Of a stretch of DNA of 64,000 bases, positions 27,865 through 31,068 are shown piece after piece; within the stretch, counting starts at the first letter, position 1; each line of letters starts with the position of its first letter. This stretch comes from Microterricola viridarii. Its GTDB lineage: Bacteria; Actinomycetota; Actinomycetes; Actinomycetales; Microbacteriaceae. The notes under the pieces are model-generated. The model was not told where the DNA came from. It was given only the letters and a program-made list of their open reading frames with translations, and made no database searches. The translations under genes were made by a program, and so were the position numbers. The stretch spans positions 1,984,001-2,048,000 of the forward strand of contig NZ_LT629742.1 of assembly GCF_900104895.1 (NCBI RefSeq), given 5' to 3'.

Positions 27865-28509
27865 ATGTGTGCGAGCTACGGACTGGAAACGACCCCGGAA
27901 GAGCTGGACGAGCACTTCGCCTTCGACGAGCGCGGCCGCAACGACGCCGTCGTCGACTGGTTGGCGCAGAACGCCGGCACCGTGGTCAAGCCGACGGGCC
28001 CGCGCGCGCTGAACCTCAACCCGTTGGTGCGCGAGCGCCTGCTCGACGGTGAGGCGGTGCGCCGGGTGGACTTGGCCTGGTGGCAGCTCTGGGTGGGCGG
28101 CCAGCGGCCGAAGTTCTCGACCATCAACGCCCGCAGCGAGAACCTATTGAAGGGTGCCTGGCTGGGGCCCGCGCGGGCGCGCCGGGCGCTCGTGCCCGTC
28201 ACTCACTACTTCGAGAAGGGGCGCCGCTTCGACCTCGGGGGAGAGCTGTTCAGCCTGGCCGCGATCTACAACGTCGATCGCTCCGACGCGGCGGGCACGG
28301 ATGACGGCTGGGTGGTGTCCTACGCGATCGTCACCAGGCCGGCCGCCAGCCACGTCGAGGAGATTCACGACCGGATGCCGCTGATCGTGCCGCCCGCGAT
28401 GTACGCGGACTGGCTCGCCCCCGACGTCACCGCAGACGCCACGCTCGTCGGCGCCACGGTCGCGGCCTCGAACGAGCTCGCCGACGCCGTCGTCCCGCAC
28501 GCCGCCTGA
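27865..28509 (+). CDS. SRAP-domain abasic-site processing protein (YedK/HMCES family)
   Basis: A 214-residue SOS response-associated peptidase. Met-Cys at the N-terminus gives the catalytic Cys2 after Met removal, which forms a thiazolidine crosslink to abasic sites in single-stranded DNA. The other active-site elements are FSTINARSENL (Asn), PVTHYFEK (Glu) and EIHDRMPLI (His). Length and motif order are standard. Leaderless-type start. The gene ends at the border of a repeat-rich non-coding stretch. No SOS box was recognised upstream. Confidence 0.93.
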   Translation: MCASYGLETTPEELDEHFAFDERGRNDAVVDWLAQNAGTVVKPTGPRALNLNPLVRERLLDGEAVRRVDLAWWQLWVGGQRPKFSTINARSENLLKGAWLGPARARRALVPVTHYFEKGRRFDLGGELFSLAAIYNVDRSDAAGTDDGWVVSYAIVTRPAASHVEEIHDRMPLIVPPAMYADWLAPDVTADATLVGATVAASNELADAVVPHAA

Positions 28510-28578
28510 GCCGCGTCGCGCCGTATCGGGGCCCGGGGGACCCGACCTCGCCAGCCTGCCCTCGCCTCCTCCGCCTCG

Positions 28579-28624
28579 CCCCACGTCGGCTGAGCGTCTC
28601 TCCCCACGTCGGCTGAGCGAGGAA
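28579..28624 (+). repeat. 23-base tandem repeat, two units
   Basis: Two units of CCCCACGTCGGCTGAGCG plus five bases, the same family as the six-unit array at 29152. The second unit runs into the left end of the 196-base element. Confidence 0.8.
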
Positions 28625-28800
28625 CGAGCGAAGCCCCGGAGCCAACCTGACACGGCTGCTCGTGTGCGCACCAGCGCCGCACGAACCCCGGGTGGCGTTC
28701 CCGTCGGATGCCGCAGGCGACTGTTCCCCGCCGGCTCCCGGGCTTCGGGGGCTGCGCTGCTCGTTCCTCGCGGCGCGGCCCCCTCCAGCCGACGTGCGGG
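28605..28800 (+). repeat. 196-base element with inverted ends, copy 1
   Basis: Bounded by CACGTCGGCTG (28605-28615) and its exact reverse complement CAGCCGACGTG (28786-28796). Inner arms GAGGAACGAGC and GCTCGTTCCTC are also inverted. Copy 2 lies exactly 250 bases downstream with about a dozen mismatches and no gaps. Confidence 0.85.
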
Positions 28801-28854
28801 GGAGCCGTCCGTGGCATGCGGAGGGCTGCCCGGCCTCCTCTCCACGTCCCTCCC

Positions 28855-29050
28855 CGCGTCGGCTGAGCGAGGAACGAGCGAAGCCCCGGAGCCAACCCGC
28901 CACGGCTGCTCGTGTGCGCGTCAACGCCGCACGAAGCCCGGGTGAGGTTCCCGTCGGATGCCGCAGGCGCCTGTTCCCCGCCAGCTCCAGGGCTTCGGGT
29001 GCTGCGCTGCTCGTTCCTCGCGGCGCGGCCCCCTCCAGCCGACGTGCGGG
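28855..29050 (+). repeat. 196-base element with inverted ends, copy 2
   Basis: Ungapped copy of 28605-28800. The left end reads CGCGTCGGCTG and the right end CAGCCGACGTG (29036-29046). It encodes no protein and has the shape of a small non-autonomous element. Confidence 0.85.
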
Positions 29051-29072
29051 ACACGTCTCGCACCTTTCCGTT

Positions 29073-29106
29073 GGTCGAGTAGGCGCGCCAGCGCCGTATC
29101 GAGACC
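29073..29106. repeat. REP-like imperfect palindrome
   Basis: GGTCGAGTAGGCGCGCC is followed by AGCGCCGTATCGAGACC, an imperfect inverted repeat of the kind scattered between genes in Microbacteriaceae. A partial copy is at 28519-28533. Confidence 0.6.
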
Positions 29107-29151
29107 CGGCGACCCAATCTCGCCAGCCTGCCCTCGCCCTCCTCCGCCCCG

Positions 29152-29289
29152 CCCCACGTCGGCTGAAAGCCCCTCCTCACGGCGGCTGAACGATCTTCCC
29201 CGCGTCGGCCAAAACTCCCTCCCCGCATCGGCTGAACGTCTCTCCCCAGGTGGGCTGAGCGTCTCTCCCCACGTCGGCTGAGTGAGGAA
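29152..29289 (+). repeat. 23-base tandem repeat array, six units
   Basis: Units start at 29152, 29175, 29198, 29221, 29244 and 29267, an exact 23-base period, with consensus CCCCRCGTCGGCTGAAC plus six bases. The units are diverged in sequence but not in length. Confidence 0.85.
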
Positions 29290-29443
29290 CGAGCGAAGCC
29301 CCGGAGCCAACCCGCAACACTCGCCCGCGAGGGCCTGCCCGAAAGGTCACGATCAGGTAACGACGGCGGAAGTTGTCCACATTGGCCCCGATTCGGGCCT
29401 GTTTTCGCCTCGGAGTGTCAGTGGTCGGTGAGACGCTTCAGTC

Positions 29444-30910
29444 ATGGAAACGCAGCCGCCGCAGGCCCCCGCAACCGGGTTCGACCCGCTGCTGGATGCG
29501 GACCTGGCCGAGCTGTCCTTGGGTGCTTCCGCGGAGTGTGTTCTGCAGGCGGAACGCTACCGGCGGATCGATTCCGCCGTGCGCCGGGCGGTGGCGATCG
29601 CCGACCCGCTCGGCGGCCGGCCGTCCCTGGACGAGCAGTTCGCGAGGCGCAGCATCACCGCCGAGCTCGCCCTGATCCTGCGCGTGCACGAGCGGACCAT
29701 GGTCGGCCTGATCTATGAGGCCGGGCAGCTCTGCGGCCCCTTCGCCAACACGCTGGCCGAGCTCTCTGCCGGGAGCATCACCGTGCGGCACGCGCGGGAG
29801 ATCCTCGCCGGCGCCGTCGTCCTGCCTCCCACCCTGCACGCCCGCTTCGAGCGGGAGGCGCTCGGCAAGGCCCGCACCATGAACGTGTCCGCGTTCCACC
29901 GGGCGGTGGCCCGCCTCCGCGACCGGCTGCACCCCGACGCCCTCGCCGACCGCGCGGCCCGGTCCCGGGCGGACCGCCGTCTGGTGTTCGAACCGGACGC
30001 CGACGGGATGGCCTGGCTGCACCTGTATCTGGAGGCGGAGAAGGCCCTCGCCATCAGCACCCGGGTGGGCGACCTCGCCACGGAGGCGCAGAAGGAGGCG
30101 GCCGAGGCCGGCGAGCTGGGGACAGACGTGGTGGCAGCAGACGAGGCCGCAGGCGAACTGACCGACGACATCCTGAGCGCGGGCACCCACGCTCAGCTCG
30201 AGGCCGACATCGCCGCCGAACTGCTGCTCGGCCTCCCCGCCCAAAACACGGAGGACGGCCAGACCCACATCCCGACGCTGGCATTCGCCCGCCCGGAGGT
30301 CTTCGTCGCCGTCCCGAAACTCACCATCGGCATCGACACCCTCATCGGCACCTCGGAGGAGCCGGCCGAGCTCCACGGCTACGGCCCGATCGACGCCGAC
30401 ACCGCCCGCCGGCTCGTCGCGCAGGCCCCCACACTGCACCGCATCCTCACCGACCCGCTCGACGGCACCCCGCTGCAGCTGGACCCGACCCAGTACCGGC
30501 TGAGCGCGTCGCTCCGGCGCTGGATCCTCTACCGGGACGAGACCTGCCGTTTCCCGGGCTGCACCCGCAAGGCGGAGCGCTCCGAGACCGACCACACCCG
30601 GGCATGGGAGGACGGCGGGCAGACCACCGAGGAGAACCTGGCGGTGCTCTGCAAGAAGCACCACCGGCTCAAGCACAACTCCCGCTGGCGGGTTCAGCAG
30701 ACCGGCGGCGGAAACCTCAGCTGGACCTCCCCGCGCGGCCGCGAGTACACGACGACCCCGTCCCGGATGCAACATGCACCACCGCGACCGCCGACCGGCC
30801 CACCGGAGCCATCCGTGTCGCAGGTTTCGATAGGCTCCAACGGCGGGGGAGAACCAGCGGGGAGGCGGGCCATGACCGGTTCAACCCGCGAAGTGGCGCC
30901 GCCGTTCTAG
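29444..30910 (+). CDS. DUF222 / 13E12-type HNH endonuclease
   Basis: A 488-residue protein of the multicopy actinobacterial 13E12 family. The N-terminal two thirds are a helical DUF222 domain (ITAELALILRVHERTMVGLI, AGSITVRHAREI, ARTMNVSAFHRAVARLRDRL). The C-terminus is an HNH nuclease: CRFPGCTRKAERSETDHTRAW, TTEENLAVLCKKHHRLKH, containing the DH, N and HH residues plus paired Cys ligands for zinc. The function of the family is unresolved. It lies between a repeat mosaic and a tRNA cluster, suggesting it arrived or spreads with the repeats. No clear Shine-Dalgarno; the proline-rich tail is non-conserved. Confidence 0.88.
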   Translation: METQPPQAPATGFDPLLDADLAELSLGASAECVLQAERYRRIDSAVRRAVAIADPLGGRPSLDEQFARRSITAELALILRVHERTMVGLIYEAGQLCGPFANTLAELSAGSITVRHAREILAGAVVLPPTLHARFEREALGKARTMNVSAFHRAVARLRDRLHPDALADRAARSRADRRLVFEPDADGMAWLHLYLEAEKALAISTRVGDLATEAQKEAAEAGELGTDVVAADEAAGELTDDILSAGTHAQLEADIAAELLLGLPAQNTEDGQTHIPTLAFARPEVFVAVPKLTIGIDTLIGTSEEPAELHGYGPIDADTARRLVAQAPTLHRILTDPLDGTPLQLDPTQYRLSASLRRWILYRDETCRFPGCTRKAERSETDHTRAWEDGGQTTEENLAVLCKKHHRLKHNSRWRVQQTGGGNLSWTSPRGREYTTTPSRMQHAPPRPPTGPPEPSVSQVSIGSNGGGEPAGRRAMTGSTREVAPPF

Positions 30911-31068
30911 AACCTCGTACCGCCGGGCCTGTGGTGCCGACAGCGGCTTCGGTCGCACGCTCCCTCCGGCCAGCGCGAAACCAGCGTGTGGACGGGCCGG
31001 AGCCCTCTCTGCCGCACCCCGAAACGCCGGGGCGCACGCTCGATGTGCATTGAGGCACCGGCGTCGGC

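Follow-up and report, generated by a model that had tools for sequence, protein, structure and literature searches.

Many actinobacterial genomes contain repeated DUF222-HNH genes of the 13E12 type, for which, to our knowledge, neither a role nor a means of spread has been established. The mycobacterial REP13E12 repeats, which resemble the genes treated here in belonging to the DUF222 family and in being repeated along the genome, show frequent gene conversion (PMC13061034 and PMC10589994, excerpts). Among small repeats, the closest described systems are the REP/BIME elements, i.e., short imperfect intergenic palindromes that are dispersed as singles, inverted pairs or tandem arrays and whose pairing is strand-biased. 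The Microterricola family described below shares this architecture, but it is actinobacterial, linked to DUF222-HNH genes and devoid of a RAYT, and the likeness to the enterobacterial or Pseudomonas REPs is meant as one of architecture. In the REPIN-RAYT systems, as in Microterricola, an inverted pair of palindromes of about 200 bp occurs and palindromes lie beside a DNA-processing gene (PMC3116915 and PMC2817692, excerpts), whereas Microterricola has no Y1 transposase (none in five genomes) and its full pairs are not dispersed. The CGTC-tagged REPs are also similar, with CGTC next to the palindrome and no dedicated transposase (PMC3733652, excerpt); the Microterricola palindromes differ from them in carrying CGTC at both ends (CGTC...GACG), and a term search of the accessible text of that paper did not return "Actinobacteria". 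No paper linking DUF222-HNH genes with REP-like palindromes was found in the literature searched, which is not proof of absence.

The window analysed here is a stretch of 64,000 nucleotides of Microterricola viridarii, whose genome (G000; 3.84 Mb in a single contig) was compared with four other Microterricola genomes (G001-G004). Downstream of a SRAP gene and a PemK-type gene, the forward strand of the window carries, as noticed in a first-pass annotation, two units of 196 nt each (28605-28800 and 28855-29050), which are offset by 250 nt and can be aligned without gaps and with 13 mismatches; since the second copy matches the first one with E = 3.7e-81 in a similarity search, a likeness by chance can be excluded. 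The inner arms, described as inverted (GCGAGGAACGAGC / GCTCGTTCCTCGC), are indeed perfect 13-mers in both copies, and the third left-end fragment that had been recognised further downstream was located at 29270-29312. The inverted outer ends (CACGTCGGCTG / CAGCCGACGTG) hold perfectly for copy 1 only, while copy 2 starts with CGCGTCGGCTG and has one mismatch. The same strand contains other features that the annotation had not mentioned: a palindrome named A2 (TTGGTCGAGTAGGCGCGCC...TATCGAGACC; 29071-29106), which belongs to a different dispersed type of the genus, a row of ~23-bp CCCCACGTCGGCTGA-like units (29150-29269) that precedes the third fragment, and a gene, W1 (29444-30910), coding for 488 aa. 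Both domains of the DUF222-HNH (13E12) type were matched in its product by Pfam (DUF222, 1.7e-14; HNH, 1.9e-7), and a weak B-type palindrome, CGGCTTCGGTCGCACGCTCCCTCCGGCCAGCG, follows its stop codon (30944-30975, forward strand).

Each 196-bp unit is composed of two related palindromes in opposite orientation, D on the left (CACGTCGGCTGAGCGAGGAACGAGCGAAGCCCCGGAGCCAACC) and C on the right (GGCTCC...GGGGGCTGCGCTGC-TCGTTCCTC-GCGGCGCGGCCCCC...CAGCCGACGTG), separated by a spacer of about 87 nt. In copy 1, D spans positions 28605-28647 and C positions 28735-28799; in copy 2, C is located at 28985-29049; and the fragment at 29270-29312 is a third copy of D, the type that precedes every gene of the W1 clade (see below). 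C, when reverse-complemented, can be aligned with D apart from an additional stretch of 12 nt on each side, by which its stem is extended; the C stem of copy 1 is 14 bp long, with two T-G pairs on the forward strand, and the palindrome ends with CAGCCGACGTG. As a whole, the unit is an inverted pair of REP-like palindromes and, as such, BIME-like. When its folding was compared with that of shuffled sequences, C gave z = -2.96 as RNA and z = -1.92 as DNA; D alone folded no better than its own shuffles, either as RNA or as DNA. The C stem shows covariation: in 66 distinct C-like elements, which were selected by their similarity to C, positions 7 and 41 of the stem are paired as G-C in 45 cases and as C-G in 20, and 875 out of 924 stem cells are paired on one strand versus 763 on the other. 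Rfam returned no family for positions 28400-29500 up to E = 1. A terminator scan, which gave two hits only (29044-29063 and 29384-29399), placed no T-tailed terminator on either palindrome; a plain terminator was rejected, neither hit coinciding with a D or C palindrome.

The analysis of the distribution of the unit revealed that it matches all five Microterricola genomes and none of the 25 genomes of other genera (30 searched). In the M. viridarii genome itself it has 66 matches, most of which correspond to C (query ~82-203) and a few to D, in agreement with the "structured repeat family" proposed at first. The other possibility that had been put forward, a purely local duplication, fails for the halves because of these 66 matches and of the presence of the unit in the five genomes of the genus: single palindromes are dispersed both in the genome and in the genus. 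The genome-wide search for the complete unit thus had a twofold outcome, in that the halves proved to be dispersed, whereas full coverage in G000 is limited to the two copies of the window. Among the matches listed, seven are near-full-length units belonging to three species (two in the window, three in G004 and two in G001), and all seven are located 198-644 bp upstream of a DUF222-HNH gene of the W1 clade. The dispersed palindromes are short and intergenic, their position being judged from the reading of the loci, and inverted pairs and mosaic clusters are found as well, as in REP/BIME families. In 400 kb of control DNA from G000, a palindrome scan counted ten A, eight A2, 12 B, four C and one D. 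The 28-nt core of D (up to three mismatches) has 18 matches in G000, only seven of which are placed before genes of the clade. An exact copy of this core was also observed at the end of a gene of Nakamurella leprariae (L138:3358-3385), which belongs to another actinobacterial family than Microterricola; its TGA is apparently the stop codon of that gene.

Solo C palindromes are gained and lost from one species to another. Twelve solo-C loci were prepared and, once one of them (L014, a clade site) had been dropped, 11 were searched in the related genomes. In G004, C is present at five and absent from four of the nine loci judged, two others being left out (L027, with a missing flank, and L007, split over two contigs); in G001, it is present at three and absent from five of the eight loci compared. 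Some of the empty sites retain the tail of C only and, at L012, the segment that differs is flanked by two direct copies of GGCGCGGCCCCCTC, a pattern that an insertion or a deletion would explain equally well. Five occupied/empty pairs of solo C were read and none displayed a target duplication; full units were not found at clean empty sites. These data bear on the MITE-like nature that the first-pass annotation had attributed to the unit. The short inverted ends and the existence of several copies stand, and would suit a classical MITE of a DDE-type insertion sequence, in which case the insertion sequence in question would have CCCCACGTCGGCTG ends; however, no full unit exists in G000 outside the window, no target duplication accompanies the pairs that were read, and the ends belong to larger palindromes, which are found as singles, and such an origin appears extremely improbable to us. 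In this analysis, matching palindromes were seen upstream of no other type of gene than that of the DUF222-HNH nuclease, which is no known transposase. As for the Y1/RAYT transposase (PF01797), it is absent from all five genomes of the genus and was found in five of the 14 control genomes; a RAYT was rejected as the mobiliser in view of this absence.

All 17 DUF222 matches of G000 were examined. Five G000 genes make up the clade of W1 (85-91% protein identity to W1), of which 14 members were found in total (five in G000, six in G004 and three in G001), with a mutual identity of at least 74%. Palindrome D is located before each of these 14 genes, ending 131-150 nt before the ATG, without gaps in 13 cases and with a one-base insertion in P4. 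The genes of a second subfamily, X, can be aligned with W1 in short stretches only (31-33% identity), yet possess their own variant of the palindrome, DX (GGCTGAGGGAGCGAGGAACGAGCGACCGAAGCC), placed 115-159 nt before the start in all the 18 X genes that were read (eight in G000, six in G001 and four in G004); one of the ten DUF222 genes of G001 and five of the 18 of G004 were judged by coordinates only. Seen from the side of the palindrome, 39 of the 45 DX matches (up to two mismatches) in these three genomes have a DUF222 match no more than 1.5 kb downstream. At one G000 locus (L075; G000:C1:1646322-1647182), five DX follow one another in tandem with a regular period of 207 bp, ahead of an X gene which falls ~70 aa short of its paralogs in length. 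Overall, a D/DX-form palindrome within 250 nt upstream is found for 13 of the 17 DUF222 genes of G000, the remaining four having neither D nor DX, and for none of the 278 genes called by a simple GC3 rule in the 400-kb control; the corresponding Fisher value (1.5e-19) overstates the evidence, since the paralogs are not independent and W and X represent few independent cases. On the other side of the genes, a B-type palindrome in reverse orientation is found within 120 bp after the stop in five of the 14 clade genes and in five of the 17 DUF222 genes of G000, versus two of the 278 control genes.

The borders are differently organized in the other two species-level relatives, G002 and G003. None of the seven X genes read in these genomes (78-84% identical) has DX, and some of them share their sites with G000; likewise, none of the four W-like genes read (60-62%) has D, other palindromes being visible by eye in front of them. 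In several genes of the same two genomes, a palindrome was recognised by eye after the stop instead. The inspection by eye of 30 DUF222 loci from eight other genera disclosed mostly no such palindromes, and a rule joining DUF222 genes and palindromes in the whole family was rejected accordingly. Since the G002 and G003 genes lack D and DX and most of the loci of other genera lack palindromes, the border is a lineage-specific trait rather than a constant component of the gene. A separate case was observed in genome G015, from another genus, where different long inverted repeats (GAGGGCAAGCGCGAAGCGCGCGGCAGC...GCTGCCGCGCGC...GCGCTTGCCCTCGA) adjoin four DUF222 loci, after the gene at L239, L247 and L255 and before it at L232.

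One might suppose that the DUF222-HNH nuclease, in the place of a RAYT, moves REPIN-like non-autonomous palindromes in trans, its gene being framed by palindromes of this family and the inverted 196-bp pair being the miniature of the gene. The presence of D or DX before two distant subfamilies, the excess of reverse B-type palindromes after the stop, the fact that near-full units (among the matches listed) occur only beside the clade and the lack of a RAYT would all fit this scheme, as would the CGTC-tagged REPs of other phyla, which are reported without a dedicated transposase (PMC3733652, excerpt). However, most of the copies are flanked by a palindrome on a single side, those of G002 and G003 have it on the 3' side, most of the other genera have it on neither, and no insertion at a new site with defined junctions was seen. 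Moreover, we know of no HNH nuclease that moves such hairpins, and we consider the scheme quite unlikely.

The leader between D and the ATG is conserved. The motif TGTCAG(T/A)GG is located at the same place of the leader in all 14 clade genes (in W1, within TGTCAGTGG... at 29416-29437, forward strand) and was found in one of 283 control genes. It is similar to the beginning of the PafBC/RecA-NDp-type DNA-damage promoter of mycobacteria (consensus tTGTCRgtg-8-TannnT; PMC5656591, excerpt); the -10 part of W1 (GACGCT) is a poor fit. This motif raises the possibility that the DUF222-HNH genes are part of the DNA-damage regulon. No paper naming both RecA-NDp and 13E12 was found, and a term search of the accessible text of PMC8151990 was also empty. 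Two further observations concern motifs of this kind: in six of the eight X leaders of G000 (L070 and L072-L076), the motif, with TAGCGT as -10, faces away from the gene and towards DX, and the PafBC/RecA-NDp-like motif, which in the form TGTCR(G/A)(T/A)GG stands before all 14 W genes, is matched by a loose pattern at 18 of the 30 DUF222 loci of other genera (L230-L259). An exact DnaA-box-like 9-mer, TT(G/A)TCCACA, lies a short way upstream of most DUF222-HNH genes of the genus (loci L070-L077 and L041-L067, besides W1 with TTGTCCACA at 29373-29381, forward strand). It is present in seven of the 14 clade leaders and in all eight X leaders of G000; in the four other Microterricola genomes, 21 of 24 DUF222 loci have it, as against two of the 30 loci of other genera, and no site exists in the 400 kb of G000 control DNA.

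This conserved leader, with its damage-promoter-like and DnaA-box-like motifs, together with the fixed distance of D and DX from the start and the strand-biased pairing of the C stem, might suggest that the palindromes are kept for an RNA or DNA hairpin function (transcription ends, insulation of a damage-inducible gene or mRNA stability), in which case their position before the DUF222-HNH genes would be regulatory. Such a function is at odds with the lack of a T-tailed terminator at D or C, with the frequent loss of solo C between species and with the folding of D alone, no better than that of its shuffles, and we regard it as unlikely.

According to flank searches, all five sites are occupied in G004 as well, and three of them (those of W1, W4 and W5) in G001. 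Although located at these three sites, the G001 genes are grouped together in the gene tree with 100/100 support; P1 and P3 are also grouped at 100/100, and W1 and W3 less firmly. The C-terminal tails and the downstream DNA exhibit, instead, a site-by-site kinship between G000 and G004. Since the tree groups the genes by genome while tails and downstream DNA match by site, the members of the clade evolve in concert within genomes, most simply by gene conversion, as read from the comparison of the tree with tails and flanks. The W2 site is empty in G001 (2,095 bp in G000 vs. 116 bp) and the W5 site is empty in G003 (2,052 bp vs. 54 bp) and occupied by other DNA in G002. At both empty sites, the gene and its palindromic border are missing as one block, and no recognisable duplication is present; in the comparison with a homing endonuclease element, two empty sites do exist in relatives. 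An extended proposal, which we hold to be very doubtful, is that the DUF222-HNH nucleases of these actinobacteria took over the role of the RAYT by acting on the hairpins at their own borders, and that DNA damage (through a PafBC-type control) and DnaA would govern a joint spread and homogenisation of hairpins, inverted pairs like the 196-bp unit and the gene itself.

In our opinion, it is rather probable that the palindromes represent a genus-specific REP/BIME family with no known mobiliser, and that they travel with the borders of DUF222-HNH genes, which undergo conversion. According to this reading, the D...C pairs would form the 5' border of the gene, and the two 196-bp copies would be the outcome of a local duplication; recombination between paralogs (gene conversion) would copy and homogenise the border palindromes along with gene and leader, and the single palindromes located elsewhere would turn over through small insertions and deletions. 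It is conversion, rather than transposition, that might have spread the 5' border, and the HNH nuclease might help by making breaks. In M. tuberculosis, the REP13E12 DUF222 repeats rank high for gene conversion (PMC13061034, excerpt). For the cell, the palindromes might perhaps act as transcription ends or as mRNA/DNA hairpins. The reading has to face the G002 and G003 genes devoid of D and DX, some of them at the same sites, and the other genera, which mostly lack the palindromes; moreover, D is not exclusive to the clade (seven of 18 D matches of G000 precede it), and the two species-level gains of whole blocks would need insertion, not conversion alone. The link of two distant DUF222-HNH subfamilies with lineage-specific palindromes in RAYT-less genomes represents a concrete and testable partner, and it serves both sides, i.e., the DUF222-HNH nucleases and the palindromes without a known mobiliser.
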